The notes under the pieces: generated by a model | Databases searched by the model: none | Told to the model about the DNA's origin: nothing | Seen by the model: the letters and a program-made list of their open reading frames with translations, nothing else | In this document: piece after piece, positions 2,142-34,123 of the stretch | Layout: each line of letters begins with the position of its first letter | Numbering within the stretch: the first letter of the stretch is position 1 | DNA from: a virus | Strand: one strand, 5' to 3' | Virus record (IMG/VR): IMGVR_UViG_3300048573_000087 | Span: 1 to 50,933 of that record | Length of the DNA: 50,933 bases | Program-made: the position numbers and the translations under genes

Positions 2142-2441
2142 ATGGATATGACCAATGGAGTTGACGGCTGCTGCTCGACTAACCTACTGCATCATCTGGA
2201 CAACATCACCAATGCGGATGTACTGGAATATCTCGGTTCTAGCTATCAGGACGGCACCAAGATGATTATCGCTATTACCGCTGACTACCAAAAGAAAGCT
2301 GTAGGTGTTCTGAAATCATGCGGCTTCAAGAACTCGCGCCGTATGGTGAACAAAGAGCATACCGACAATATATATGGAATTACCCTGTGGTATCGTTCGA
2401 CACGCCCAGCAGCCAAGAAGAAGGCCAAGCGTCGTAAGTAG
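2142..2441 (+). CDS. hypothetical protein, 99 aa, basic C-terminus
   Basis: Starts behind GGAG in 2121-2140. A mixed alpha/beta core (DVLEYLGSSYQDGTKMIIAITADYQKKAVGVLKSCGF) ends in a highly basic tail (PAAKKKAKRRK), which suggests nucleic-acid contact. The LKSCGF segment recalls the end of GNAT folds but no acetyl-CoA motif is present. The TAG stop is part of the palindrome at 2438. Confidence 0.6.
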   Translation: MDMTNGVDGCCSTNLLHHLDNITNADVLEYLGSSYQDGTKMIIAITADYQKKAVGVLKSCGFKNSRRMVNKEHTDNIYGITLWYRSTRPAAKKKAKRRK

Positions 2442-2453
2442 TCTGTAGACTAC
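2438..2453. repeat. 16-bp palindrome copy 4 (centre GT)
   Basis: GTAGTCT-GT-AGACTAC; supplies the TAG stop (2439-2441) of the preceding gene. Confidence 0.95.
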
Positions 2454-2521: not shown

Positions 2522-3466
2522 ATGGCAGCAATACCAAAGCGGGCTTCATACACAAACGTGCATCAGAGGCCGAGGGCCGAACCGAAACTGGAATCATCGG
2601 CCCAACGGTCCCTGACTGTGGGAGCCGACCCGGAAATGTTCGCAACGGACGATGTGGGAAAGATTCGCAGCGTAATCGGCCTTATTGGCGGGAGCAAGTT
2701 AAGGCCGCTGCAAGTAGGCGAAGGCTTCTTCGTGCAGGAGGACAACGTAGCACTGGAGTTCAACATTCCGCCAGCGACGAGGAAATCTGAGTTCATCAAG
2801 TATATTCAAGCCGGTGTGGGGCATTGCCGCGCGGCGCTCACTAAGGTTAATCTGCACATGCACATTGCGGGCAGCGTGGATATGCCGGATAGCGAGTTGC
2901 AATCTCCGTCTGCGTTCGAGTTCGGGTGCAACCCGTTTCATAACGCATGGTCATTTGAAAAACCAAAGGCGCTGTCAATGGATATGCTGGATAACCCCGC
3001 CACTCGGTTTGCGGCGGGCCATGTTCACATTGGTATTCCCGGCATTACCTCGGACCCGTTGTTACGTGCCTATTGGGCTCGCGCTCTGGATGTATGTTTA
3101 GCGGCACCGGCTTTGTGGTGGATGACTGAGGTTGAACTGGCGCAAGAGCGTGTGCGACGTACCATGTACGGAAAGGCCGGGTCATTCAGGCCCAAGCCCT
3201 ACGGCTTGGAGTATATCTCACTGAGCAACTTCTGGATAAAAGACAGTGCCAGAATTGGTGCCGTATGGGACGCCATATACTACGTGCATACCATATACGG
3301 ACCCGCCAAGCACGGCCCCCGGCTTGGAAACCAAGATTATCAGACGGCGGCTGCATTGTGCGATGCGATCAACGCCTGTGACAAAGAGGGAGCCAAACTT
3401 GGTATACAACTATTAGTTGGGGTTGCTGCGGCTAAGCAGTTGATGGAACTGCCGCGTAATCAGTGA
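2522..3466 (+). CDS. phiEco32-like COOH-NH2 ligase (amidoligase, type 2)
   Basis: ATP-dependent ligase of the glutamine-synthetase-like fold, expected to join a carboxylate to an amine. Signature motifs in order: GADPEMF (34-40), ALEFN (77-81), AAGHVHIG (164-171) and YGKAGSFRPKPYG...EYISLSNFW (216-238), the conserved core of the phiEco32-type amidoligase family. At 314 aa the domain is complete. The start is set by TGGAG at 2507. It opens the cluster holding a second amidoligase, two glutaminase-type enzymes and an ATP-grasp ligase. The true substrate is unknown; family context (known) points to peptide or gamma-glutamyl chemistry (inference). Confidence 0.9.
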   Translation: MAAIPKRASYTNVHQRPRAEPKLESSAQRSLTVGADPEMFATDDVGKIRSVIGLIGGSKLRPLQVGEGFFVQEDNVALEFNIPPATRKSEFIKYIQAGVGHCRAALTKVNLHMHIAGSVDMPDSELQSPSAFEFGCNPFHNAWSFEKPKALSMDMLDNPATRFAAGHVHIGIPGITSDPLLRAYWARALDVCLAAPALWWMTEVELAQERVRRTMYGKAGSFRPKPYGLEYISLSNFWIKDSARIGAVWDAIYYVHTIYGPAKHGPRLGNQDYQTAAALCDAINACDKEGAKLGIQLLVGVAAAKQLMELPRNQ

Positions 3467-3474
3467 GCCATATC

Positions 3475-3490
3475 GTAGTCTACAGACTAC
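3475..3490. repeat. 16-bp palindrome copy 5 (centre AC)
   Basis: GTAGTCT-AC-AGACTAC, eight bases after a TGA stop and ahead of TTGGAG for the gene at 3512. Confidence 0.95.
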
Positions 3491-3511
3491 GCAACCTGTT
3501 GGAGACTACTT

Positions 3512-4348
3512 ATGTTTGTGGAGACTTCTGATGAGTTAAATCATCGCTACGCACAGACTTTTATTGGTGCGCGTGAGGATGGTGTGGTTGTGCCAGTATA
3601 CGTTGGGCGGTTCTCTAAGGTTAACCCTAAACATTCTACCTTAGAGGGCGCCAAGTACATAGCAAGAGGCGACTCTGTTGTTCAGGAATTGTTTTCTCGG
3701 ATAGTTAATTATGAGGACATTGTATGGGCAGCGCCTTTGCTTGGGTATGTTAATTGCCGGGACAAGATAGTTAAGTGGGTGTCGCGTGCTCCCGAGGCTC
3801 AACCGGCCCGAACGCGGGGACTCTTACCTTCCTTAACAATGTATTCCTATTGGAACCCTGATGCCTCGGGGTTTGTGCGTCTAACTATGCGGCGTCTCTT
3901 TGAGAACCCAGCCGAATCATGGGATATTCCGTCAGTGTATAACCCTGTGTATATGGCGGCTGATGAAGCATGGGGGCGCATTAGGAGCAACGAGTACGTT
4001 GGCGCGGCGATTAGCCGTAACATTGCTATGATAAAAACGCGACTATCGCGCAAGCCTGTTGTGTTTTACAAAGACTTGGTGGCGGGGCTATACGATAAAA
4101 GTGGCACTATATTCCTTCTACCGCACGCACACCTATTGTACGAGGAAATGTCGTTGTATGCTCCGTGTGAGAAGGTAGAAGCAAAAGAAGTAGCGCGTGC
4201 GCCTTTTGCATCTGTGGGCACAGCCGCTCAGCCGCTACAATACATTTGGGCGGCAGACAGGGAGGCCCCCCGGTTTAATATAAATCCGGGTATGTTTAAT
4301 GTTGCAATTCACAACGGAGATGAGGACAATGAAGAACCAAATTGGTAA
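3512..4348 (+). CDS. unknown protein of the amidoligase cluster, 278 aa
   Basis: Starts behind TTGGAGA (3498-3504). No catalytic motif recognised. The middle (YWNPDASGFVRLTMRRLFENPAE) and later VVFYKDLVAGLYDKSG suggest a soluble mixed alpha/beta protein, and the last ~60 residues are less ordered. It sits between the two amidoligases and overlaps the second by 20 nt, so it is made together with them and may be a partner, scaffold or substrate carrier. That role is inferred from position only. Confidence 0.7.
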   Translation: MFVETSDELNHRYAQTFIGAREDGVVVPVYVGRFSKVNPKHSTLEGAKYIARGDSVVQELFSRIVNYEDIVWAAPLLGYVNCRDKIVKWVSRAPEAQPARTRGLLPSLTMYSYWNPDASGFVRLTMRRLFENPAESWDIPSVYNPVYMAADEAWGRIRSNEYVGAAISRNIAMIKTRLSRKPVVFYKDLVAGLYDKSGTIFLLPHAHLLYEEMSLYAPCEKVEAKEVARAPFASVGTAAQPLQYIWAADREAPRFNINPGMFNVAIHNGDEDNEEPNW

Positions 4349-5267
4349 GATGTTTGGGCACCCATCTGACCCGCGCACATTCGCGGTGGACGACAGGTGG
4401 CCGTTACCTGATTGCTGCATAGGGCTGGAATTGGAGTTTGAGAACGCCGCGCAGCAGGAAGATGTGTATCGTATAATAATGCCAAAGTTCGTTGCGTTTG
4501 GGCATGACCCCTCGCTACGTGGTGACGGCATTGAGTTGCGTTTCACACATCCGCTGTCCGGGGTTGATCTTACAGCAGCTATTACCGAACTTATGATGAT
4601 AGTTGCTGAGTTCGCACGGAAGAACGAATCCCCTCTGGCGCTGAACTTACGGACTAGCCTCCATGTGCATCTGGATGTGCGTAACCTTACGCCGGAGCAG
4701 TTCCGTCGGCTAAAGATGGTATCTATTATGTTCGAGAAGGTACTGTTTCATTATTGTAGCCCAACGCGGGAATACAATAATTTTTGCTTACCCACCTATC
4801 GGGCAGAGGAACTACGTCAACAGTACGCAAACATTCTTGATGCAAATAGAGGCGACGAAGTATTGCCGGTATTCATACAAGGGGCCAGCAAGTACATGGC
4901 AATAAATTTCCTGACACTCAAGGAATTCGGTAGCGTGGAGTTCAGGATGCATCAAGGAACCTTGGATATGGACGAGGTTATCGAGTGGGTGTCCATAATT
5001 CAATGCCTTAAGAAGGCGGCGCTGGACATGCAGTTTGATGGTCCGACAGAGCTAGTTATTCAGGTATCTAAGCTAGGGGCAAGGCCGTTAGGAATGCAGA
5101 TATTCGGACCATTGTGGCACGAGTTGGATTATCCTGATGCAGAAGTAGACATAATGCACGGGGCTCGTTTTGTTCAAGACTTGCTTCTGCTTCCTAAGTT
5201 GCAGTACGATACTTTTAGTAAGGCGGATTTGGCTGTTGTGGAAGAAGCAATGCGGAAACACACGTAG
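4329..5267 (+). CDS. second amidoligase (Amidoligase_2 type)
   Basis: A second glutamine-synthetase-fold COOH-NH2 ligase, clearly different from the one at 2522. Motifs: IGLELEFE (31-38), DPSLRGDGIELRF (60-72), RTSLHVHLDV (108-117), YMAINFL (189-195) and GSVEFRMHQGTLD (201-213), the pattern of the Amidoligase_2 family. The start at 4329 is chosen because GGAG (4316-4319) is nine bases upstream; an in-frame ATG at 4299 has no such site. The first 20 nt overlap the previous gene. The TAG stop comes from the palindrome at 5264. Confidence 0.88.
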   Translation: MKNQIGKMFGHPSDPRTFAVDDRWPLPDCCIGLELEFENAAQQEDVYRIIMPKFVAFGHDPSLRGDGIELRFTHPLSGVDLTAAITELMMIVAEFARKNESPLALNLRTSLHVHLDVRNLTPEQFRRLKMVSIMFEKVLFHYCSPTREYNNFCLPTYRAEELRQQYANILDANRGDEVLPVFIQGASKYMAINFLTLKEFGSVEFRMHQGTLDMDEVIEWVSIIQCLKKAALDMQFDGPTELVIQVSKLGARPLGMQIFGPLWHELDYPDAEVDIMHGARFVQDLLLLPKLQYDTFSKADLAVVEEAMRKHT

Positions 5268-5279
5268 TCTACAGACTAC
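5264..5279. repeat. 16-bp palindrome copy 6 (centre AC)
   Basis: GTAGTCT-AC-AGACTAC; supplies the TAG stop (5265-5267) of the second amidoligase. Confidence 0.95.
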
Positions 5280-5305
5280 ACCACTTAACACTAGGAGATT
5301 ATGAT

Positions 5306-6829
5306 ATGTGCGGTATTCATGGGTATATAGGTAGTGTTCCGTTTGCAGCAGACAAACCAAGCGGAGCACATGTTCGGGACGTTGTGCGTGACGGGTTCAT
5401 AACTGGCATGGTACGAGGCGTACACTCAGCGGGATTATTTGCTGTTCCCAAAAATCAAGAGAAGGAAATTCCGTTTCTCAAGAGAGCGTACAATGGGCTA
5501 GATTTCGTTAATGCAGCGCCAGTTAAGGACCTTCTTAGCGATTTTGCCCTGATGAACGGCTACGTTGGCCACGTTAGGTGGGCCACTAAGGGGGACGTGC
5601 ATAGGGACAACGCGCACCCGTTCCAGCACGGACCTATTACGATGGTCCACAATGGAACCATACTAAATGAGCGATCACTGGGCGATTGGGGCTATGGTAC
5701 GGACAGTGAATACATTTGTCGCAGCTTAGCCGAACGCCCGGACCCGAGGGATACAATCAAACTTCTAAATGGTCCATTTGTTTTGGTGTGGCATGACCGC
5801 CGGACCAATAAGATGTATATGACACGAAACAAGGAACGGGAATTGGCATATTCGTATGTCAAGGACCGCAACTTGCTGCTCTTTGCCAGCGAGTGGCCGA
5901 TGCTACAATGGTTGGCTTGGCGGAACTACATTGAGTTGGAGGATATCGAATCGGTAACTCCGTATGATATTCTGGAGTTCCCTGTGGATGAGCCAAGAGG
6001 CCGTGTGATTATCAAGGCCGAGGAATATAAGCCACCAGCGCCGCTTTACCCGCAACACCACCACTCGGGGGGTGCCACTGGAAACGGAAATTTTATCCGA
6101 AAGGCCCTTTCAATAGTGCAGACGAGCACGAGTGGTGGGAATGGGTCTGATGTTCCGGCCAATGTGAAAGAGGGGCGAATAATCGAATTTGCGGTGACTG
6201 ATGTTTACCTTAACAAGAACGTCAGCCGCACTGGTGTTATCGAGGGAGTAATGGTCGATGCGCCGGGTTGGCGTGTTGTGTGCCGTGCGGTGGATATGCG
6301 TAAGTTCTCCGGCGGAAAACTCCTGCTAGGCAAGGTTGCTAGTTACGTGTGTCTCGGCTCAAGCTGGCCTACAGTCTATGTGGCCTTTGTCAATGAGTCC
6401 CAAAACCCCGACGTGCTCAAGGATGGCACGCCCGGAACATACAAGAAGCATTATAAGAAGTACAAAGAAGTGGAGCAGAATCCCATACTGCAACCGGACT
6501 ACGCCGTAAAAAAACCGAAGCCAATAATACTGGATTCAGAGATGGACCCGGACGACGTTTGGGTTGAGGTTCAGAATGAGTCCTTAAAGTGCCTAAATGA
6601 CGAGGAATATCCGGGATGGCACCGTATGGTTACACTTGATGGGCGGCTGTACTCCGTAGCAGCGGCATCAGCCATACTTGAGAAGGATAAGTGCGCGTGG
6701 TGCGGGGACCCATTCCAAAACCTCAAGGACATTAAGCATGTAGACATGGACCATGTGTGCGGGCATAATTGTGCAGATGCTATTCCATTCTTGAAAATGG
6801 GCTCTGTAGATACAGCTAAAACCCACTAA
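5306..6829 (+). CDS. class II glutamine amidotransferase (Ntn hydrolase) with C-terminal extension
   Basis: Begins MCGI, so Cys2 becomes the N-terminal nucleophile after Met removal. Motifs GHVRWATKG (88-96), AHPF (103-106), HNGTI (115-119) and DSE (133-135) define a GlmS/PurF-type glutaminase domain of about 240 residues, which would release ammonia from glutamine for an amidoligase. There is no GlmS isomerase or asparagine synthetase domain. Instead ~260 further residues follow, with a Cys/His cluster near the end (CAWC at 463-466, CGHNC at 485-489) that may bind zinc. The start is fixed by TAGGAG in 5292-5297 and by the need for Cys2. Confidence 0.88.
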   Translation: MCGIHGYIGSVPFAADKPSGAHVRDVVRDGFITGMVRGVHSAGLFAVPKNQEKEIPFLKRAYNGLDFVNAAPVKDLLSDFALMNGYVGHVRWATKGDVHRDNAHPFQHGPITMVHNGTILNERSLGDWGYGTDSEYICRSLAERPDPRDTIKLLNGPFVLVWHDRRTNKMYMTRNKERELAYSYVKDRNLLLFASEWPMLQWLAWRNYIELEDIESVTPYDILEFPVDEPRGRVIIKAEEYKPPAPLYPQHHHSGGATGNGNFIRKALSIVQTSTSGGNGSDVPANVKEGRIIEFAVTDVYLNKNVSRTGVIEGVMVDAPGWRVVCRAVDMRKFSGGKLLLGKVASYVCLGSSWPTVYVAFVNESQNPDVLKDGTPGTYKKHYKKYKEVEQNPILQPDYAVKKPKPIILDSEMDPDDVWVEVQNESLKCLNDEEYPGWHRMVTLDGRLYSVAAASAILEKDKCAWCGDPFQNLKDIKHVDMDHVCGHNCADAIPFLKMGSVDTAKTH

Positions 6830-6843
6830 CTAGGAGATAGCCA

Positions 6844-7629
6844 ATGGTTGCGTTTAACCTACTGTACGTTGAGAAAACTACTCTGAAGCGGATACAGCTT
6901 ACAAACGAGGCATGTTTTGCTCGACTGCAAGCAGCCGGGGGGCACATACACTGGTATGAGGATGGAAAAGACCATAGCATAGACCGAGACAAGGGCGATA
7001 AACTGACTAGTATACGGTATTTTCCGGCCTTGTCTAAATTAATAGACAAGGCCAGTGTAGACCGCTTTTTCGCGGAGTTACGGGAAGCAATGCCGGAGTT
7101 ACCGTGGGGGGTGTACGACTTCGCGCACTGGCGTCGGTATGGTATTTCGGTTAATATGACCAAATACTCAGGGCCCGCTGTTATTGGACTATTCTCAGCA
7201 ATCCGCTACCCGGATGAATACCCAAGCGCCATAACACGGTATTTTCTTCTGCGGGATGTTGTTGGGTTGGATGTGTTGCCTGCTTTCTTTATGATGCATA
7301 ACTTTTCTGAGTTGGATAGCAACGGAAAAAATTGGGAGTATATATCAAGCTGCGGTGGGGGGCACGCAATGTTATCGGGTAAAACCATGTATGAGGTATG
7401 TTATAAGCATTTTGTTCACAAGAAGTGGGTGCCTGTTATGACCGATATGAAGCCTTTTTCGGAGAGTTGGAACTACCTTGGTATTCAGGATTTATTCTGT
7501 CTAGCATCAGATACCTATAAGACTGGGTTCTCCACTAAGCATAAACCACCGCCGGGTCTTATTTACGGGAGTACCCTTGACAACACTGAGTTGTTAGTAA
7601 CCATAGCAAATAACTGGAGCACACCATGA
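6844..7629 (+). CDS. unknown protein of the amidoligase cluster, 261 aa
   Basis: Starts behind TAGGAG (6831-6836). No family recognised. Aromatic-rich, with segments such as GGHIHWYEDGKDH and PWGVYDFAHWRRYG and several His residues, but no assignable active site. It overlaps the next gene by four bases (ATGA), so its synthesis is coupled to the class I amidotransferase. With the gene at 3512 it is one of two cluster members without a predicted role. Confidence 0.7.
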   Translation: MVAFNLLYVEKTTLKRIQLTNEACFARLQAAGGHIHWYEDGKDHSIDRDKGDKLTSIRYFPALSKLIDKASVDRFFAELREAMPELPWGVYDFAHWRRYGISVNMTKYSGPAVIGLFSAIRYPDEYPSAITRYFLLRDVVGLDVLPAFFMMHNFSELDSNGKNWEYISSCGGGHAMLSGKTMYEVCYKHFVHKKWVPVMTDMKPFSESWNYLGIQDLFCLASDTYKTGFSTKHKPPPGLIYGSTLDNTELLVTIANNWSTP

Positions 7630-8285
7630 AAGCAAAACCAGTAATTCTTGTATTGGGCGATCAACTTGACGCTCGCCCGTTCGTACCACACGGGAACATA
7701 CGGTTCAGTTACCGCGATCAGTACGCTATAACGGCGGCGGCAGACGCGGATGTTATTATGTTCGCCGGGGGAAATGATGTTGACCCCAATCTATACGGGG
7801 AGCAATCCGGCTCTTACACAGCACTCCCGGATTATCACCGGGACAGCATAGAGCAGGAGGTATTTGCCGTTGCCCTAAAGAGGAAAATACCAATGGTCGG
7901 TATCTGCCGTGGCGCTCAATTCGGCTGTGTGATGTCCGGCGGTAAGCTGTTCCAGCATGTTACAGGCCACGGACTACGTGGTGGGCATCCTGCCTCAACC
8001 AGTGACGGGGAGGAAATCTATGTTACAAGCACTCATCACCAGATGCTTAATGTCCGGGGGACTAACCACCAACTCTTGGCTTGGGCGTCTCCTAACCGCT
8101 CGAAGGAATACCTTGGGGAGAGTGATAATCCTCAAGTTCCTCCAGAGCAAGAGCCCGAGGTAGTGTGGTTTCCCAATACTCGGTTTTTGGCGGCACAGTA
8201 TCACCCGGAGTATATGGATGAGGCCACTACCGGGTGGAAGTATTACCAGAAGTTACTCACAAAGTATATCTTCAACCAAGCGTAG
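7626..8285 (+). CDS. class I glutamine amidotransferase / peptidase C26
   Basis: Gamma-glutamyl-hydrolase/PuuD-like family. FAGGNDVDPNLYGE (46-59) is the family signature. The nucleophile elbow is GICRGAQ (92-98, Cys94) and the His-Glu of the triad lie in QYHPEYM (191-197). It should cleave a gamma-glutamyl amide bond or supply ammonia. At 219 aa it is a stand-alone catalytic domain with no signal peptide, so it acts in the cytoplasm. ATGA overlap with the gene before; stop codon supplied by the palindrome at 8282. Its presence beside two ligases suggests trimming or recycling of the product. Confidence 0.9.
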   Translation: MKAKPVILVLGDQLDARPFVPHGNIRFSYRDQYAITAAADADVIMFAGGNDVDPNLYGEQSGSYTALPDYHRDSIEQEVFAVALKRKIPMVGICRGAQFGCVMSGGKLFQHVTGHGLRGGHPASTSDGEEIYVTSTHHQMLNVRGTNHQLLAWASPNRSKEYLGESDNPQVPPEQEPEVVWFPNTRFLAAQYHPEYMDEATTGWKYYQKLLTKYIFNQA

Positions 8286-8297
8286 TCTATAGACTAC
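8282..8297. repeat. 16-bp palindrome copy 7 (centre AT)
   Basis: GTAGTCT-AT-AGACTAC; supplies the TAG stop (8283-8285) of the preceding gene and precedes TAGGAG of the ATP-grasp gene. Confidence 0.95.
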
Positions 8298-8316
8298 ACA
8301 AACATAGGAGAACATC

Positions 8317-9180
8317 ATGTTTGACGTAGGAATTTATCGTGCGCGTAAGGGAACCCCCGGAGTGGGTCGTAAACTAGCTGAGGCCCTTGGGGCCTATGAA
8401 GTAACTTCGGTTCGTCCAGCAGAACGTCCCGCTAACGGTGCTATAGTAATTAACTATGGCAGATCGGAAAAACCCGATTGGTATGATGAGTTTATTCACA
8501 ATGGGGGACGTATAGTAAACAAAGGTAACGCGGTTGCCAAGTGTGTAGACAAGCGGGTAACTTTGGCACTTCTAACAGATGCTGGTATTCCTTGCTTGGA
8601 GTGGACTTCTAACCAAGGCCGCGCCCAATCTTGGGCTGATGATGGGGACCGTGTATTCGTTCGTGCTACAACCAAAGGAAAAAAGGGAAATGGAATATCC
8701 ATTATTGGTCCCGGGAGCGATGTGCCAATTGCTCCGTTGTACACCAAGGATTACCCAAAAACACACGAGTTTCGTGTGCATGTGGCCTTTGGAAAGGTGA
8801 TTGACTTTGTGCAAAAGAAGCGCATGGGGGCCGAGAAACTCAAAGCTAACGGAATTGATGCAGTAAACGATGATGTTCGCAACCATCATCGCGGATGGGT
8901 GTTTGCACACAAAGATTTGGCTATCCACGTGGATGAGCGGGAAGTTATCTACGGCATCGCCCTTGCTGCGTCTGCGGCGCTCGGTATGGACTACTGCGGA
9001 ATTGATATGCTTGCAGTTGTGCGGGGAGGTAAACTACACCACGCTGTTATCTGCGAGGTAAACTCCGCTCCCGGAATGTCAAGTAAGCAGACGTTCGACG
9101 CTTATGTCGGCGCGTTTAACGAATATATCAACAACCATCGGCAAGTGTTTGCCGTTGCTGGTTATGATGGAGTAGCGTAA
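8317..9180 (+). CDS. ATP-grasp ligase
   Basis: ATP-grasp fold enzyme forming an amide bond through an acyl-phosphate. The N-terminal pre-ATP-grasp part includes INYGRSEKPDWYDEF (45-59). The ATP-binding core contains VFVRATTKGKKGNGISII (113-130) and EFRVHVAFGKVIDFVQKKR (151-169). The metal-binding motif is CEVNSAPGM (246-254), with GIDML at 228-232. This matches the ATP-grasp proteins of phiEco32-like phages. It is the last gene of the cluster and is followed by a hairpin-rich gap. It is the third independent ligase in 7 kb, which suggests a multi-step assembly. Confidence 0.9.
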   Translation: MFDVGIYRARKGTPGVGRKLAEALGAYEVTSVRPAERPANGAIVINYGRSEKPDWYDEFIHNGGRIVNKGNAVAKCVDKRVTLALLTDAGIPCLEWTSNQGRAQSWADDGDRVFVRATTKGKKGNGISIIGPGSDVPIAPLYTKDYPKTHEFRVHVAFGKVIDFVQKKRMGAEKLKANGIDAVNDDVRNHHRGWVFAHKDLAIHVDEREVIYGIALAASAALGMDYCGIDMLAVVRGGKLHHAVICEVNSAPGMSSKQTFDAYVGAFNEYINNHRQVFAVAGYDGVA

Positions 9181-9291: not shown

Positions 9292-9307
9292 GTAGTCTAT
9301 AGACTAC
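9292..9307. repeat. 16-bp palindrome copy 8 (centre AT)
   Basis: GTAGTCT-AT-AGACTAC, in the gap between the hairpins and the MazG-like gene. It is one of the few copies more than 50 nt from any gene end. Confidence 0.95.
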
Positions 9308-10001: not shown

Positions 10002-10027
10002 CCGCACATACCCGAGGACGGATGCTA

Positions 10028-10741
10028 ATGAAATCACAACAGCGACGAGATAGGTATTGGTGGGTACGAGCAGTAATAGCAGGTGTTATTCTGCTAACAG
10101 CGGGCATGTTTGCCACATCCCACGCCGATGATAGTTTCACAGGCCACACGGATTACGTGCCGTATACTAGACAAATTGAGCAGCGGTACAAGATTAAGCC
10201 AAATCTGTTAGTGGCGATATGTAGCAAAGAGAGTAATTGGCGGAACGTCAGGGGCAAACACGGGGAGATAGGGGTTTGTCAGGTTAAGCCTGAATCAGCC
10301 GCCCTAGCTTTGGGGAGTACCACAAAGCGCCCTGTGCTTGCGTATGGTTCTCGCGGAGATTACGTGCGGTTTGCTCAGGCGCTATTGAAGATAAAGCCTG
10401 ACGGGGCCTATGGGAGAGCCACAGAGTTACAGGTAAAGATGTTCCAGTATCACAATGGACTACGTGTGGATGGGGTAATAAGTAAACAAACGTGGTATTT
10501 TCTGGCAGGGCCGGAGTCCTACACACAAATGTTATGGAACCCTCGCCAGAACATTGAACTAGCCGCTAGGTATTTGGTGTGGTTGCGTGACCTGTTAAGC
10601 ACGGATGATGCTGTAATACTAATGGCTGCGTATAACGGAGGTCCGGGAAACCCCGTTGTGAAATACATGGTCGCTGTGGAGCGATATCGACAATCACTAA
10701 ACCCCATGTATGAGGCGTATCTTATGGAGGACTTACGATGA
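10028..10741 (+). CDS. membrane-anchored lytic transglycosylase with an inserted peptidoglycan-binding domain
   Basis: An N-terminal hydrophobic segment (WVRAVIAGVILLTAGMFAT, 12-30) is a signal peptide or anchor. The SLT fold is split. Its first part has catalytic Glu68 (CSKESNW) and GEIGVCQVKP (79-88). Then comes a PG_binding_1-like module at about 107-160 (PDGAYGRATELQVKMFQ). The SLT fold resumes with NIELAARYL (175-183) and ILMAAYNGGPG (197-207). It should cut glycan strands in the periplasm. It sits among early/replication genes, not with the virion lysozyme, so a role in wall entry, superinfection control or lysis is open. Start at 10028 because GAGGA is nine bases upstream; ATG 10022 is too close. 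Confidence 0.85.
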   Translation: MKSQQRRDRYWWVRAVIAGVILLTAGMFATSHADDSFTGHTDYVPYTRQIEQRYKIKPNLLVAICSKESNWRNVRGKHGEIGVCQVKPESAALALGSTTKRPVLAYGSRGDYVRFAQALLKIKPDGAYGRATELQVKMFQYHNGLRVDGVISKQTWYFLAGPESYTQMLWNPRQNIELAARYLVWLRDLLSTDDAVILMAAYNGGPGNPVVKYMVAVERYRQSLNPMYEAYLMEDLR

Positions 10742-11373
10742 GTGTTCTGGAGTTTCAGGGATTCCCTAGCATTAAGCGGCTATCTCGTGATATAATAATC
10801 ACTGAGAAGCTGGATGGAACTAACGCGCAAATTTATATTGAGCTGCGCGACAATGTTCCGCAAGACGAGTTGGACTCTGGAGTAGCCCCGTTCATGTCAG
10901 TGCAGCGGGATGGGATTGATTATGTCATGCTGGCGGGTTCGCGGACCCGGTGGTTAGGAAAGGGCAAGTACGATAACTTTGGGTTCGGGGAGTGGGTTGG
11001 AAAACACTCAGACGAGTTGCTAAAACTAGGCCCGGGAAGGCATTTTGGGGAGTGGTACGGAAAGGGAATTCAACGCGGATATGGGCTGACAAATAAGCGG
11101 TTTTCTTTGTTCAACGTATCCCGATGGAAAACCTGTTGTTCGGATGCGGAAGAATACGAGGTTCTTCCCGGATGTTGCGGGGTTGTTCCAATCTTGTATA
11201 AGGGCCCGTTTACCGAAGAAGCAATATACTTAGCCCTAGATGCTTTAGCTACAGGAGGCAGCGTGGCCGCTCCTGGATTTATGGACCCGGAGGGGATTGT
11301 TGTGTTTCATACGGCGTCTAACACGCTTTTCAAGAAAACATTTAAAGGGGATGAAAAAGGAAAGGGCGTATGA
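10738..11373 (+). CDS. RNA ligase, Rnl2-like
   Basis: Nucleotidyltransferase that seals RNA ends through an enzyme-AMP intermediate. Motif I is EKLDGTNA (23-30, Lys24 nucleophile) and an SRTRW segment (68-72) is motif Ia-like. Motif III is FGEWYGKG (103-110), motif IV DPEGIVVF (183-190) and motif V LFKKTFK (197-203). At 211 aa it is essentially the catalytic core without a C-terminal helper domain. ATGA overlaps link it to the genes on both sides. With the tRNA at 1386 it may form part of RNA repair; no polynucleotide kinase is visible here. Confidence 0.88.
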   Translation: MSVLEFQGFPSIKRLSRDIIITEKLDGTNAQIYIELRDNVPQDELDSGVAPFMSVQRDGIDYVMLAGSRTRWLGKGKYDNFGFGEWVGKHSDELLKLGPGRHFGEWYGKGIQRGYGLTNKRFSLFNVSRWKTCCSDAEEYEVLPGCCGVVPILYKGPFTEEAIYLALDALATGGSVAAPGFMDPEGIVVFHTASNTLFKKTFKGDEKGKGV

Positions 11374-17624: not shown

Positions 17625-17824
17625 ACGATAAACTGTGGTACGTACAAGATCAACTAACACTGATTCGTCGGGCTCTGGAGCGCGGGCAGTATCGGGCTAA
17701 ACAGGGATGTGTCGCTAGCGAATTACTTGAGGTTTTTACTTACACTCTAGCTGAGTTGGATAGGGCGCATCTTGCCTTACTTGAAGAAATAAAGGGGAAT
17801 TATATAGATGACTCCCTTGCGTAA
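17582..17824 (+). CDS. hypothetical helical protein, 80 aa
   Basis: Starts behind AAAGGAGAG and overlaps both neighbours. The bulk (QDQLTLIRRALERGQYRAK, LLEVFTYTLAELDRAHLALLEEIKG) is amphipathic helix, suggesting a small helical bundle. Function unknown. Confidence 0.6.
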   Translation: MVGCMFHPRATVRMNDKLWYVQDQLTLIRRALERGQYRAKQGCVASELLEVFTYTLAELDRAHLALLEEIKGNYIDDSLA

Positions 17825-18509
17825 AGAAATTATTGGCAACGCCACCCTCTATCTCGGCGATTGTCTTGAGATACTGCCTACCTTGGGAAAGGTGGATGCG
17901 GTGATTACTGATCCGCCGTATCTAATAAGTTTTTCCACTGGTGGTAAATCAGATACAGAGCAAGGGAAAAAATGGAGCGGAATTTTGAAGCCATGTGATG
18001 TGTCTGTAGGAATACATCAAACGGATATTTCCAAATGGTTGTCTATCATCTCCTACGACGTGGAGCTATACATTTTCTGCAACGACAAAAATGTTTTTAA
18101 AGTCCTACAAGAAGCCGATAAATGTGGGCTGAGAACGCACAATATTCTTGTATGGAAAAAGCAAAACGCCACCCCAAACCGCTGGTACATGAAAAATTGT
18201 GAGTTTGTAGCTTACTTTTGGAGAGGTAGGGCCAAAGCTATAAAGAACATGGGGTCTAAACAGTGCATCGAAGTTCAAGGCGTCGAAAATAGGCAGCATC
18301 CCACGGAAAAACCAATAGAGCTTATGGAGCATTTTGTTAAAAATGCTGGGGAGGAAATACTCGACCCCTTCATGGGTTCTGGCACCACCGGAGTCGCTTG
18401 TATGAATCTAGGCCGTAAGTTCATCGGCATCGAGATCGAGCCTAAGTATTTCGAGATAGCTTGCGAGCGCATTGATAACGCCCAGAAGCAGGGGAGGTTG
18501 TTCGTATGA
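17808..18509 (+). CDS. DNA methyltransferase (N4/N6, DPPY type)
   Basis: S-adenosylmethionine-dependent amino-methyltransferase of beta order: catalytic DPPY (35-38) comes before the SAM-binding DPFMGSGTTG (186-195), with HPTEKP (164-169) in front of the latter. No restriction gene is adjacent, so this is a solitary phage enzyme, likely protecting phage DNA from host restriction. Target sequence cannot be read from the protein. The start overlaps the preceding gene by 17 nt. Confidence 0.9.
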   Translation: MTPLRKEIIGNATLYLGDCLEILPTLGKVDAVITDPPYLISFSTGGKSDTEQGKKWSGILKPCDVSVGIHQTDISKWLSIISYDVELYIFCNDKNVFKVLQEADKCGLRTHNILVWKKQNATPNRWYMKNCEFVAYFWRGRAKAIKNMGSKQCIEVQGVENRQHPTEKPIELMEHFVKNAGEEILDPFMGSGTTGVACMNLGRKFIGIEIEPKYFEIACERIDNAQKQGRLFV

Positions 18510-22636: not shown

Positions 22637-23054
22637 CACGTTTCCCAACCTGTTTAGCCCACAGGGAGGCTGTAAGTCCTGAAAGGACATCCTCAGTACG
22701 GCCAGCCTTCATTGCGGCGAGGGTGTTTTTGAATGTAAGCAGCTTTCCTGTTGGGTCCTCTGTTGACGGGCCTACACCCAAATTGTAGGCCATATTAGCC
22801 AGAACCTCTTGCCTGCCATCGCTCAGGGACCGCCACCACGGCAGGTACTTGTCGAGTAACATAGTGGTCCTATCAATATCATTCTCCAGCATCAAATCCA
22901 TTTCCCCCTCGCTTAAATCCCTGTCCGACATATTCCTTCCATAACCCACAGTTATCTTTCCTTTGGGCGTAATAGGTACACCTGTATCATCATAGATACG
23001 TGGCCTACGACCCTCATCAACCTTTAGTTGTGCCTTGAGTCGTTGCTTATTCAT
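22602..23054 (-). CDS. endolysin, GH24 lysozyme (T4/P22 type)
   Basis: Muramidase cutting peptidoglycan. The catalytic triad aligns as Glu14 (VDEG), Asp23 (IYDDTG) and Thr35 (ITVGYGRN). ANMAYNLG and the C-terminal FKNTLAAMKAG region are typical. 150 aa, no signal peptide or membrane segment, so it needs a holin; the holin candidate is 23 kb away at 45810. It is the last gene of the late block, overlapping the ejection-protein gene by four bases. It could also be carried in the virion with those proteins. Confidence 0.92.
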   Translation of the reverse strand: MNKQRLKAQLKVDEGRRPRIYDDTGVPITPKGKITVGYGRNMSDRDLSEGEMDLMLENDIDRTTMLLDKYLPWWRSLSDGRQEVLANMAYNLGVGPSTEDPTGKLLTFKNTLAAMKAGRTEDVLSGLTASLWAKQVGKRATRLLASWEQG

Positions 23055-25066
23055 TTACGTGGACCAACTCCTGATATATCTTCCTCTGTAGCACCTGCAC
23101 TTCTAGCTACTGCCTCCAATTCCTTCTGCCTCTTTTGTAGTGCGGCAATCTGCACGTTTATGTCAGCGTTCTCTCCTTCGGACAGAATCTCTGTTGCTGG
23201 TTGCGGCATCACGGATTCCTTAGGGGTAGCGCCTCTCCACGAATCAATCCTGCCGGATTCGACTTGCTTGTTCCTACTTTTACCAGCCTTAGTCTGCTCA
23301 ACAGTGATCGCATGTAGATCGCTAAGTAGCCCTTTCAAATACTCATCAGGTGTCTTTCCGCCAAGGGCTCTCTCGAACTCAGGAGAAGTCTCATAGGTAC
23401 GAAGTACCTTAGCAACAGCATTCAGTGTCTTTATCGAATTGAGAATCTCTGGAGACGTAATCATAGCGGCCTGCTTTATATCAGTCGGGCCACTAAGAAG
23501 GTCGTTATACGAGCCAGTTGTAACTAACGGATTAAAGATGAACTCACCCGCTTTGTAGGTAAGGATATCCTGTAGCGGAAGTTCTCCAGCGAAGGACAGA
23601 TTCTTTGCCTCGGACATAATAGCCGGTAATGACATCTTCACCTTAGCCACTTCATTAGCTAAGCCAAACACAAGCTGCTTGCGTTGCTCTGGTGTGGTGT
23701 TAATAGCCACACGCGGGTCGCCCATTACATAGATAGACTGCCTGTCGCCCGAGGCGACGCTCTTGTTCAGAATATCAATGCCCTTTTGCTTACTCTCCGG
23801 GGTAGTGTCGGGATTGCTGTCTAGAGCAGCCGAGGCTGCTCCAAGTACCGTGCTGTTATAGGCACCGGGAGAAACCTTACGATCAGGAAGAATACCATTG
23901 GTAACATTACGTAGACCCTCAATTAAACTAGGCAACTGCTGCTGGAAGTCGCCAACCAGTGCAGCACCCGGGTCATTCTTATACCAGTTCTTGAGTTGCT
24001 CGGGATTCATGTTTTGCATACGTTGCATCGTATCTACCACAAACTTAGCACCAGTGCCGGGGGCTGCGCGTTCAGCTAACGCCAGCATTGGGAATGCTTT
24101 GGCGCCAGCAACATCGAGATAGGCCATCATACCATCACGATTGGTTTTCATAATAGTCGAGAAGGATTGGGATGTTACCATTGTCTCGATGTTCTTGAAA
24201 TACTCATTGATGTTATTGGTAGTAGTGCTGATAACACTCGGGTCTACCATTTTATCCTGTAGGCGAGATTGCGCCGCAGATAGGGCGCGTTGTTTTGCCA
24301 ACCCGATCTCATTCATAAGTTCTTCTGGTTTCATAATAGACCCATCATTGGTGATACGGGCTTGCATCTTTCCTAAGATACCAAGAGTTTCATTGTGTGC
24401 AATACCAGAGGCATAGTTGTATGTTTGAGCAGCGGCTACGCGGCCTTGTGCAAATCCATTCTCTATGCGCTTGTTCTCTAACTCAATTTGAGATGTTTGA
24501 TTAAGTCGATTTAGCACAATGTTGCGGTGCTCATCTGTAACTACCGGCCCGCTAGGAGTTACATTTGCTAAGCCATTGTTAATGGCCAAATTATCCAAGT
24601 GGCTTTGCAGCGCCGCCTGTTGTTTCTCTCCCGCAGTTTTATCAAGCAAACCAGTACCCGGACCAAAATCACCAAAGAACGCAGCGGCTTGGCTACGGAA
24701 CTCTGATGCCTTACCGGGCAGACGAGCAGACGCAGACTGAACCGCCTTGGCGGCAAGTATCTTTGCTCCACTGTCCGTGAGTAATCCCTGTTGCCGCATC
24801 TTGGCTATCTTGCTTAGGCTAAGTTCCTTATCAACGTCTGGAGAAACACCCGCCATACCCGATTTGAGCGTTGGGTCATTTGCTGGTCCCGGCTCGGTAG
24901 TCCCGCCCTCCAAATCAGATGCCACCTTGGCTGTATAGCCCTCCAGCGCCAAGTTAGCTGCGGTCTTAACCAAGTCGGTCGGGTCCGTGGCTATAGGACG
25001 GCTAAAGTTCCGATCAGGGAATTGAACAGTACCTACATCTTTAGTAAACGTCTTGTCGCCAGCCAT
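23051..25066 (-). CDS. internal virion (ejection) protein, 671 aa
   Basis: Long, helical, Ala/Lys/Gln-rich protein without enzymatic motif, placed between the giant ejection protein and the lysozyme, the position of T7 gp15. Such proteins leave the capsid with the DNA and line a channel through the envelope. Assigned by size, composition and gene order. The start is coupled to the preceding stop. Confidence 0.7.
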   Translation of the reverse strand: MAGDKTFTKDVGTVQFPDRNFSRPIATDPTDLVKTAANLALEGYTAKVASDLEGGTTEPGPANDPTLKSGMAGVSPDVDKELSLSKIAKMRQQGLLTDSGAKILAAKAVQSASARLPGKASEFRSQAAAFFGDFGPGTGLLDKTAGEKQQAALQSHLDNLAINNGLANVTPSGPVVTDEHRNIVLNRLNQTSQIELENKRIENGFAQGRVAAAQTYNYASGIAHNETLGILGKMQARITNDGSIMKPEELMNEIGLAKQRALSAAQSRLQDKMVDPSVISTTTNNINEYFKNIETMVTSQSFSTIMKTNRDGMMAYLDVAGAKAFPMLALAERAAPGTGAKFVVDTMQRMQNMNPEQLKNWYKNDPGAALVGDFQQQLPSLIEGLRNVTNGILPDRKVSPGAYNSTVLGAASAALDSNPDTTPESKQKGIDILNKSVASGDRQSIYVMGDPRVAINTTPEQRKQLVFGLANEVAKVKMSLPAIMSEAKNLSFAGELPLQDILTYKAGEFIFNPLVTTGSYNDLLSGPTDIKQAAMITSPEILNSIKTLNAVAKVLRTYETSPEFERALGGKTPDEYLKGLLSDLHAITVEQTKAGKSRNKQVESGRIDSWRGATPKESVMPQPATEILSEGENADINVQIAALQKRQKELEAVARSAGATEEDISGVGPRK

Positions 25067-30983: not shown

Positions 30984-32426
30984 TTAGCCAACCTCCGTGC
31001 CGTTAACATAGACTGACGCAGTTATTGTTGTGTTATACTGCGTCGATGATGTAACTTTAACTACAATAGTATCGCCATCTACACAGGTTCCGGGATCACT
31101 GGTATACGCCCCGCCGTTTTTTGAATACTCGCCGCCGGTAATAGTTAGTGTGGCGGGAACTGTTCCTATACCACTTATCGTAATTAAATTTGATGTAACT
31201 ACAATGTTTAGTGCTACATTCGCTACATCGGAGAATGGAACCGATGCCACAGGCAGTATTGGTAGCGCGGTTATCGTCACTGTATCGGCTGAACTTAGTA
31301 GTACCCCATCGAACACAGTTAATGAAAACACTAGAACTGTGGGCACAGATACCGTCGGAGTTATAAATGTTGGCTGCTGCACTGTTGCGCTTGAGAGAGA
31401 AACCACTGGTCCCTGCGTTTGAGTCCACTGATAGGTTAGTGGTTGACTCTCCGGGTCCGAACTTCCGGCGCCCGTTAATTGCGTAGTTTCTCCAGAATAT
31501 CTAGTCTGATCCGCGCCTGCATTAGCTATCGGGGGAAGATTGCTCGGAACATCTAAGACTGTTATATAAACTGTATCCGCGTGGGTTGCCGCATTATTGT
31601 CGGTAACTGTTAAACGAAATTGAAGGGAAGAAGGAAAAGCAACTGCCGGGGCGGTAAAGGTTGGCTGTGAGGCCGTAGTACTAGACAGTGTTACAGAAAT
31701 TCCGGCGATTTGTTCCCATAAATATGCACTTATAGTTCCATCAGGATCGGTACTACCTGTACCATCCAATGTAACTACATCTCCTTCATCTACATTTTGA
31801 TCGGGGCCAGCATCAGCGATTGGCGGTACGTTAGTGGCAGGAACACCAATAACCAGAGTTAATGTTGGCGGCGAGGATTCTGTGTAAGCATCAATTTGCG
31901 ACCAAGTAGTAGGCCCAGTCTCGGTATCCATCTTGATAGCGAGAGCGAATAGTTTTGTTCCGGTATTTATACAGGCATTGATGTCGGTTAAAACACCACC
32001 GGCTGTCAGGGCAATAGACTTTACGCCGGTAGTTCTGAAATCCGTTAAAGCGGCTTTATATACATTTCCCGTTGCGGCTCTGGATAACAGATTTGCCGCC
32101 GTATCAGATCGAGGGTCGAACTCATCTCCTGTAGTCCCATAGCCTAAAATAGACCATGCCGAGGAACCAGCCCCGGACGTGGAACTGATATTACAACCGA
32201 AAGTCGCTGTCAAAACTTCTTCACTGGCACCGAAGACAATGCTATTCAAATCGAATAAAGCCACTACTCGGTAAACCACGGAAGACTGAGGTCCGGCAGA
32301 ATGTCCGGGCCAAGTACCTATGGTTGTTCCATCTGTATCCGCCGACCAACTAGCATTAGGTAGGGGCGATCCCTGAGGATTCGGTGCTCCTAAGTCTCCA
32401 ACTAATGCACCGGGCATAAGCGCCAT
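30984..32426 (-). CDS. tail protein with two PKD-like domains
   Basis: 480 aa. The N-terminal ~195 residues form a beta-rich module of unknown type. Two PKD/Ig-like domains follow at about 199-290 and 295-385, each opening with PPIADAGPDQ or PPIANAGADQ and containing GSTDPDG or GSSDPES. A third Ig-like domain ends the protein. Such repeats hold carbohydrate- or protein-binding surfaces on virions. TAATG coupling to the beta-helix spike gene suggests joint assembly at the tail tip. Confidence 0.8.
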   Translation of the reverse strand: MALMPGALVGDLGAPNPQGSPLPNASWSADTDGTTIGTWPGHSAGPQSSVVYRVVALFDLNSIVFGASEEVLTATFGCNISSTSGAGSSAWSILGYGTTGDEFDPRSDTAANLLSRAATGNVYKAALTDFRTTGVKSIALTAGGVLTDINACINTGTKLFALAIKMDTETGPTTWSQIDAYTESSPPTLTLVIGVPATNVPPIADAGPDQNVDEGDVVTLDGTGSTDPDGTISAYLWEQIAGISVTLSSTTASQPTFTAPAVAFPSSLQFRLTVTDNNAATHADTVYITVLDVPSNLPPIANAGADQTRYSGETTQLTGAGSSDPESQPLTYQWTQTQGPVVSLSSATVQQPTFITPTVSVPTVLVFSLTVFDGVLLSSADTVTITALPILPVASVPFSDVANVALNIVVTSNLITISGIGTVPATLTITGGEYSKNGGAYTSDPGTCVDGDTIVVKVTSSTQYNTTITASVYVNGTEVG

Positions 32427-34123
32427 TAGCGGGATACTCCTGAAAGATCGACATCGAACGGAGCCACCGGGGGCTTGGTGTCGTCTATACCAATAGACGT
32501 TCTACTACCTATGGCATTACTTTCTGCGCCTGAAGGACAATAATTATATTCAGGTAAGGGACTGGCATTATATGGTTTTGCGTAGGGAATATATGTAAGT
32601 TCACCGCCTGATACAGTTCTTAATTTCTTACGGAAAGAATAAGGGCCGCGAATGGCTTTTAATACACAAGACCCATCGGTAACGTCATCCCCTAGTATTA
32701 CCGGATAAGTCGGCAGAGAACCAGCAGTAGTTCCCTGAGTCGTGACTATATATAGAAAGTCTCCTGCGGTTCCGTCAGCAGGAGGTGTTGCGATAGTTCT
32801 TATAATTGTTCCTACAGCGTAAAGAGTCGAGTTAGCTCTGGTAGTAATTGTTTTATCTATTTTATTCGTTTCACCACCGTTAGTGGAGTTGTAATAGACG
32901 TTATAATCAATCTGTGTTGCAGTTCCTGAGCCCCAAGCCTCTATCGTACCTGAGTCGATAGCGACATTTCCACGTATATCTTCTGTCTGGTTTTTACCAT
33001 AAGACAACCAACCAGCCGAATTACCGTTTGTTGTTTGTATCGCGGTATTTAAATACACATCCACGTTGGTTGAACTTTCCAGTGATATTGCTCTGGTCGT
33101 CCCTGTTGGGACACCTTGCATCTTATAAATAAGATTACCAAAAATAGACCAATGATCGGGGGAATAATTAGGAACTGAAATGGCAATCGACCCGTCAAAC
33201 AATATATTATCTTTTACAATGCCGTAATGATTGGACCCGCCTGAACTGGTATGGAAAATAATACATTCTCCATAAGAGCCCAAACCCCCAGAACTAGAAC
33301 TGGTAAATCTCCATCCCCAACAACGGTTGTGTATAACCCGTAAAGGACTAGCCGCCGACCCACCGCCTTTAATGTCTACCGCGTTTTCAGCCAAAGCCGT
33401 TGTCCCGCCGCCTGTCTGATAAGCGGAGGTTATATACATATCGTTATTTTCCACAACCCCGCCAGCGAAAGGATTATCTCCTGTGGTCTGGAAAATTACC
33501 GCGTCCCCTTGTACGTCATAAATCTCGTTATTGACGACATGGAAATTAACCGCACTACCAGTCCCGACTCCGGGTCTGTCGGCTAACCCATCCAGAGTTG
33601 TATGTCTCACTACGGAGTTTTGAAGCGTTACATCTGACCCACCGTGGTTATCCAAGAGAAACCCCGGCCCGTCCTCTAACAGACATCTGTTCAAAATATG
33701 GAAATTACCCGTTCCGTTATCCGCTCCGTAACCTAAACTGCCTCCAACAAGTCTTATCCTGTGAACGATCCAGTAATTTCCGGTAATCAGGATGTCCTCA
33801 AAAGACGCCTGATTAGCTCCAGACTGATTCCAAGGCTCGTCATTAATATCAGCGGCGTCATAATATCTGAGAACTTTTCTAGTCCCGGAAGAACCAGAGG
33901 CGGTTACATTTATAAGCCCTTTCCCGGTGTAATCGCCTTTAGCTACACAAAAGACAGTCCCCGCCCCGTTGAGCTTTGATTCAATTTGGGCCTCAGTATC
34001 AGACGTTGTGATATTTACATCACAGGCCGCTGTAGTCATGGTTGCTACGTCTATGTTGCAGCCGGGCGTTGTATTCCCTGCCCGCTTTTCGTATAAAGCC
34101 GTATAACCGTTTGCATCAGCCAT
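32426..34123 (-). CDS. tail spike with right-handed beta-helix, 565 aa
   Basis: From about residue 90, short repeating beta strands with Asn and Gly turns (NYWIVHRIRLVGGSLGYG; DVTLQNSVVRHTTLDG; NVDVYLNTAIQTTNGNS) are typical of pectate-lyase-like parallel beta-helix spikes that bind or cleave surface polysaccharide. Starts behind GGAG. It follows the tail tubular genes, consistent with attachment at the tail tip. Confidence 0.78.
   Translation of the reverse strand: MADANGYTALYEKRAGNTTPGCNIDVATMTTAACDVNITTSDTEAQIESKLNGAGTVFCVAKGDYTGKGLINVTASGSSGTRKVLRYYDAADINDEPWNQSGANQASFEDILITGNYWIVHRIRLVGGSLGYGADNGTGNFHILNRCLLEDGPGFLLDNHGGSDVTLQNSVVRHTTLDGLADRPGVGTGSAVNFHVVNNEIYDVQGDAVIFQTTGDNPFAGGVVENNDMYITSAYQTGGGTTALAENAVDIKGGGSAASPLRVIHNRCWGWRFTSSSSGGLGSYGECIIFHTSSGGSNHYGIVKDNILFDGSIAISVPNYSPDHWSIFGNLIYKMQGVPTGTTRAISLESSTNVDVYLNTAIQTTNGNSAGWLSYGKNQTEDIRGNVAIDSGTIEAWGSGTATQIDYNVYYNSTNGGETNKIDKTITTRANSTLYAVGTIIRTIATPPADGTAGDFLYIVTTQGTTAGSLPTYPVILGDDVTDGSCVLKAIRGPYSFRKKLRTVSGGELTYIPYAKPYNASPLPEYNYCPSGAESNAIGSRTSIGIDDTKPPVAPFDVDLSGVSR

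Follow-up and report, generated by a model that had tools for sequence, protein, structure and literature searches.

The gene cluster and its predicted enzymes

The stretch analysed here, which we refer to as the window, is the IMG/VR virus record IMGVR_UViG_3300048573_000087 (50,933 bases), and our subject is a cluster of seven neighbouring open reading frames (ORFs) at positions 2522-9180, all on the plus strand and ordered LIG, H2, AML, GAT2, CF (g5), C26 and GRASP (Table 1). An earlier note on this DNA had described the cluster as a single programme of two glutamine synthetase (GS)-fold ligases, an N-terminal nucleophile (Ntn) glutaminase, a C26 enzyme, an ATP-grasp ligase and two unknown proteins. 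The ORFs confirmed the adjacency, shared strand and overlaps (the frame at 3512-4348 overlaps the AML start at 4299 or 4329, and CF and C26 share 7626-7629), and Pfam and PHROG profiles agreed with the family calls.

Table 1. Positions and matches of the features discussed in the window
Feature	Position	Strand	Matches and remarks
LIG: COOH-NH2 ligase type 2, predicted GS/GCS-fold amide ligase	2522..3466	+	PF14395 1e-7; phrog_3815 6e-58
H2: conserved protein, predicted N-terminal SH3/Sm-like barrel	3512..4348	+	phrog_4877 2e-6; phrog_11055 also weak
AML: Amidoligase_2, predicted GS/GCS fold	4299..5267 (alternative start 4329)	+	PF12224 2e-7; phrog_7469 4e-43
GAT2: predicted N-terminal class II (Ntn) glutamine amidotransferase domain, C-terminal region with CxxC pair	5306..6829	+	GATase_6 4e-14
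CF (g5): fast-evolving protein, invariant Cys24-Phe25	6844..7629	+	no Pfam or PHROG profile match
C26: predicted PuuD-like gamma-glutamyl hydrolase	7626..8285	+	Peptidase_C26 7e-20
GRASP: predicted RimK-like ATP-grasp ligase	8317..9180	+	phrog_2599 4e-52
Small Cys protein, NCG/CCG family, GNAT-like C-terminal half	2142..2441	+	position, motif, sister contig
Palindrome, end of 2142-2441	2438..2453		sister site 51062, end of its corresponding gene
Palindrome between LIG and H2	3475..3490		sister site 554
Palindrome at AML end	5264..5279		sister site 2453
Palindrome at C26 end, before GRASP	8282..8297		sister site 5437
Palindrome after GRASP, before MazG gene	9292..9307
tRNA-Trp gene	1386-1461
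RNA ligase gene	10738-11373
DNA methylase gene	17808-18509
Large late proteins	23051-25066 and 30984-34123		no PHROG match

Residue conservation was counted over 31-84 relatives per protein. In LIG, E38, E79, H167, H169, R223 and E230 are invariant (81-82 relatives), and in AML, E35, E37, H113, H115, E205 and R207 (numbered from 4326) are kept in 79-80 of 80. GAT2, whose profile matches PurF and GlmS, bears the marks of a class II amidotransferase, i.e., an N-terminal Cys2 (77/78) and Ntn motifs, with R91, N116, G117 and D133 also kept. The C26 triad (Cys94 in 56/56, His193 and Glu195 each in 57/57) lies in CRGxQ and QxHPE motifs. GRASP matched Pfam RimK at 3e-4 (20.8 bits, slightly below Pfam's 21-bit cut-off) and, as a profile, RimK-type structures at 7e-10; the ATP-grasp active-site Lys, Asp, Glu and Asn are all present (K79, D230 and E247 invariant, N249 in 73/74). 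Homologues thus retain the two catalytic cysteines, those of C26 and GAT2, that the earlier note had singled out. Its description of a dual glutaminase was overstated, since the closest solved chains to C26 are Lin1909 and PuuD, which places it nearest gamma-glutamyl hydrolases like PuuD and not the ammonia-delivering class I amidotransferases.

The cluster is a divergent member of a known phage module

No relative of the window was found at the DNA level in 50,697 phage records. At the protein level, LIG, AML and GAT2 had matches in 313, 327 and 319 records, respectively, with nearly equal host tallies, and the module occurs in more than 300 phage records, E. coli and P. aeruginosa phages among them. 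The closest relative is a sister contig, IMGVR_UViG_3300048611_000030, which holds all the module genes (eight, counting the small Cys protein gene considered below) in the same order and with the same palindrome; identities to the window are 76% for GRASP, 68% for C26, 61-65% for LIG, 58% for AML, 57% for GAT2, 42% for H2 and 33% for CF, compared with 84% for the polymerase. In pairs of close relatives, the ratio of nonsynonymous to synonymous substitution rates (dN/dS) of the module genes was below 1 and mostly 0.03-0.3; the highest value, 0.73, was that of GRASP in a single pair so close that it offered few changes. Because the sister contig keeps the genes and their order and dN/dS lies below 1, the cluster is not a chance array; it behaves as a functional unit and is kept by selection.

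Beyond the sister contig, LIG, AML, GAT2 and GRASP were all present in 46/50 LIG-anchored IMG/VR loci (those with enough flank), 45/45 AML-anchored and 37/48 GRASP-anchored loci, counts by which independent occurrence of these four core genes was rejected. The single programme claimed earlier is borne out by this block; co-occurrence of all seven genes was found only in part, as CF is not universal among modules and a minimal AML-GAT2-GRASP form exists. The latter was seen in nine GRASP-anchored loci (L132, L153, L155, L157, L162, L172, L173, L176 and L183), usually with a longer AML and a short GAT2, and lacks LIG, H2, C26 and GGACT (gamma-glutamylamine cyclotransferase). A counterpart operon in bacteria was considered and rejected: only nine loci were found, all of them on contigs assembled from metagenomes and with LIG flanked by further genes of the module, and these are probably phage.

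The window shares the marks of the phiEco32/LUZ24 type, in that PF14395, PF12224, a class II amidotransferase and a RimK-like ATP-grasp enzyme are clustered on one strand. The order in LUZ24 (gp16-gp22), SU10 (gp88-gp78), BUCT695 and Rembedalsseter is LIG, H2, AML, GAT2, usually one or two small genes, GRASP, GGACT and replication genes; the window has this order as far as GRASP, a similar AML overlap and adjoining replication genes. Unlike these phages, it has C26 in place of GGACT (a profile search of all window ORFs found no GGACT/AIG2), and its CF gene follows GAT2 and precedes C26, whereas theirs is located upstream of LIG. The absence of GGACT separates a subtype and not the module, because it recurs in many relatives in which the four core genes are present. 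Among Zobellviridae, PA11 and CW02 (by hidden Markov model, HMM) and GP100 (by annotation) combine C26 with LIG, H2, AML, GAT2 and GRASP, as the window does, yet in PA11 and CW02 GAT2 precedes LIG, and CW02 has both C26 and GGACT. The window cluster is thus a divergent member of a known, functionally uncharacterised phage module (LUZ24, phiEco32-like phages, PA11, CW02).

The module was reportedly described by Iyer et al. in 2009. Several genome papers (PMC3890496, PMC3517423, PMC7881722, PMC6209634) mention module genes without testing them, and a literature search that missed most subscription journals found no gene-level experiment on the module and no established product, as the earlier note had said. 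The CRISPRi-ART phage PTXU04 was considered for fitness data on the module and set aside, as no module gene is annotated within its first 50 kb.

A predicted gamma-glutamyl-cleaving enzyme accompanies LIG

In module gene content, the sister contig and the window differ only in their cleaving enzymes: the window has C26 only, and the sister has in addition a GGACT (PF06094, 5e-25) between C26 and GRASP. In relatives, Glu80 of GGACT is kept nearly without exception. The 46 full LIG-anchored modules held C26 only (29), GGACT only (9) or both (8), and none held neither. On a GRASP tree of 82 modules, from which two truncated modules with neither cleaver were left out, the state (C26, GGACT or both) changes at least 12 times; the two enzymes thus replace each other repeatedly.

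We then compared modules with and without LIG, reducing 165 module records to 135 clusters at 90% identity. A cleaver (C26, GGACT or both) was present in 124/127 clusters with LIG and in 0/8 without it (Fisher 7e-11); at 45% identity the counts were 28/30 and 0/2 (p 0.012). Three apparent exceptions among AML-anchored loci have GGACT elsewhere on the genome. Searches of the whole LIG-less contigs found no match to LIG, PF06094 (GGACT) or PF07722 (C26), the Pfam searches having working controls and the LIG profile search no positive control. The tie between cleaver and LIG favours LIG as the enzyme that would add the gamma-glutamyl group.

An enlarged C26 (~390 amino acids) lies immediately before LIG in one phage lineage (L062:3705-5711, L070:8795-10801), in which no AML was detected. 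LIG and C26 as a stand-alone pair were rejected for this lineage, as an ATP-grasp gene lies ~12 kb and GGACT ~9 kb away.

Proteins outside recognised families

H2 lies between LIG and AML by both position and alignment, and among module records it was seen only together with LIG. LUZ24 gp17 matches phrog_4877 at 1.5e-72, and by its profile matches H2 is of the same conserved family as gp17. An AlphaFold2 model of H2 built from 43 sequences (mean predicted local distance difference test score, pLDDT, 81) has a small N-terminal barrel. A fold search with it gave no significant PDB match, and its best VIA-align rows were Sm/KOW/Tudor-like barrels at Z ~5, which indicate no function; against BFVD it gave significant viral matches, one of them (E 2e-9) to a protein of CW02 whose place in the module is that of H2. 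Close-relative searches for H2 and CF returned none.

The model of g5 was poor (pLDDT 56), too poor for a fold search. Like the CF proteins located directly upstream of LIG in GGACT-type modules, g5 adjoins the module and has an invariant Cys-Phe, among other shared features, so that motif and position agree with that family, the mark of which is an N-terminal hairpin with the Cys-Phe after it. The profile match is no more than suggestive (hhalign E 3e-4 at a probability of 39%, in one comparison; an HMM built without g5 scores it 0.18). Probably, g5 belongs as a distant member to this CF family, whose proteins adjoin LIG in LUZ24/kuravirus relatives.

Upstream of LIG, the ORF at 2142-2441 is probably an eighth gene of the module, whose block would then begin at 2142 rather than 2522. 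It resembles a family of small NCG/CCG Cys proteins, for which an HMM was built from 17 members located near modules; two members of the family match Acetyltransf_1 at ~1e-3, a weak GNAT match. Since the window copy is not significant by itself (E 0.085, below threshold), its membership rests on position, motif and the sister contig, which has an 'MPGNCG' protein at the matching place (L091:19028-19411). In other modules, relatives are found in the C26-LIG or the GRASP-GGACT interval. Small NCG/CCG proteins adjoin LIG or its module in L025, L039, L012, L019, L086 and other loci, sometimes two per locus.

Genomic setting and a repeated palindrome

The module sits amid early replication genes. 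Downstream of it lie genes for MazG, for a lytic transglycosylase that has a peptidoglycan-binding domain, and for an RNA ligase, a helicase, a DNA polymerase and exonucleases; these are followed by a block of late genes on the minus strand, terminase, head and tail genes among them. The layout is that of a tailed phage whose early arm runs rightward and whose late arm runs leftward.

A perfect palindrome, GTAGTCNNNNGACTAC, occurs at 14 sites in the window (467, 934, 1366, 2438, 3475, 5264, 8282, 9292, 11590, 13386, 16574, 22404, 49977 and 50194) against 0.09 expected, and no site with one mismatch was found. Many of the sites lie at the ends of early-region genes, often right before a ribosome-binding site. 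The palindrome occurs 18 times in the sister contig, where its 4-base centres are different and where several sites correspond in position to those of the window; among other loci checked, the palindrome was present only in those fetched for the motif itself, one each. It looks like an operator or an RNA hairpin under strong constraint.

Discussion

Enzyme pairs that put a gamma-glutamyl group on and later take it off are known from PuuA/PuuD, BtrJ/BtrG and EgtA/EgtC. The module may work alike, with ligases of other families, i.e., by likeness of working and not by membership. We propose, at a probability of roughly 40%, that it encodes a cytosolic, ATP-driven amide-building route in which gamma-glutamate serves as a removable cap. 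LIG would link an amine of the substrate to glutamate through the latter's side-chain carboxyl, and H2 would probably serve it as a binding or scaffold subunit; further amide bonds would be formed by AML and the ATP-grasp enzyme; and GAT2 would supply ammonia from glutamine, or hydrolyse an amide. C26 would then remove the cap by hydrolysis, a step that GGACT would perform in relatives. C26 hydrolysis releases glutamate and GGACT releases 5-oxoproline; as the by-products differ and the freed amine is the same, the amine is the likely useful output. The build-and-trim chemistry of the earlier note is retained here, with the trim step refined to gamma-glutamyl removal because C26 is exchanged for a gamma-glutamylamine cyclotransferase. 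The order of these steps is inferred, as are the parts that H2, CF and the GNAT-like protein would play.

Several points weigh against this proposal. The LIG and AML profiles matched no solved structure by sequence, and for this reason the gamma-glutamyl specificity of LIG is one that we infer. C26 could instead be a class I glutaminase giving ammonia. Three loci (L137, L156 and L275) have LIG and no cleaver that we could find. In both the 82-module tree and the 135-cluster comparison, C26 and GGACT were counted regardless of their closeness to the module; the loci without LIG are few, and some of them are related to one another; and shared descent was corrected for by clustering alone, which removes it only in part.

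The main rival, which we regard as improbable, is protein or peptide tagging, in which a protein of the host or the phage would receive glutamate or other amino acids from the RimK-like enzyme and the two GS-fold ligases. C26 or GGACT would act as eraser, and the adaptor or target would be H2, CF or the small Cys protein. RimK-type alpha-L-glutamate ligases are the closest solved relatives of GRASP, and RimK itself glutamylates ribosomal protein S6; an eraser would suit a nearly obligate cleaver; H2 has its predicted SH3/Sm-like barrel; and H2 and CF are the module genes least conserved between window and sister contig. However, no conserved C-terminal tail or acceptor motif was seen in the H2 alignment, and the substrates known for enzymes of the C26 and GGACT kinds are small compounds carrying a gamma-glutamyl group.

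Modification of the cell wall or surface against superinfection, which the earlier note had raised and which, according to PMC10580990, Iyer et al. 2009 had put forward for phiEco32, appears unlikely. GRASP does also match D-Ala-D-Ala ligases (~1e-5 to 1e-4), and the lytic transglycosylase gene lies downstream, at 10022. Yet this gene is outside the module in the annotated relatives examined, the neighbours of the module are genes of early replication (MazG, helicase, polymerase), its proteins all look cytosolic, with neither a membrane segment nor a signal peptide indicated by simple hydropathy, and no result of our analysis linked the module to peptidoglycan.

Less likely still is the neutralisation of amines, in which gamma-glutamylated polyamines would blunt a host response or tune DNA packaging and C26 would recycle them. 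PuuA/PuuD and GGACT both concern gamma-glutamylamines, and C26 is nearest PuuD, but LIG is not of the PuuA type, three ligases and an amidotransferase exceed the need, and no phage study of such a role was found in the literature searched.

Auxiliary nitrogen or glutathione metabolism, proposed for phage ZRK32, whose record holds LIG-H2-AML-GAT2-GRASP-GGACT, is very unlikely, as the growth promotion with ammonium or nitrate on which it rests came, in the available text of PMC10945688, from tests with whole phage and not single genes, the ATP-grasp enzyme is RimK-like by profile, and replacement of GGACT by C26 is unsuited to a glutathione cycle. The ZRK32 record itself (L101, OP650935.1, unverified and partial) has a LUZ24-type module whose GRASP groups with LUZ24 on the tree, a grouping that is odd for a planctomycete phage and may bear on the nitrogen claim.

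The module itself was already known; what is added here is a probable eighth gene, the H2 family with its predicted barrel, the probable link of g5 to CF and the association of cleaver with LIG. That C26 and GGACT are interchanged, and that both are missing where LIG is absent, points to one chemistry, a gamma-glutamylamine that would be made by LIG and cut by either enzyme. More broadly, and as a rather doubtful extension of this proposal, hundreds of phages may carry a biosynthetic pathway that would make a new small amide-linked molecule during infection by gamma-glutamyl capping and uncapping, with the GNAT-like Cys and barrel proteins as its unrecognised parts.

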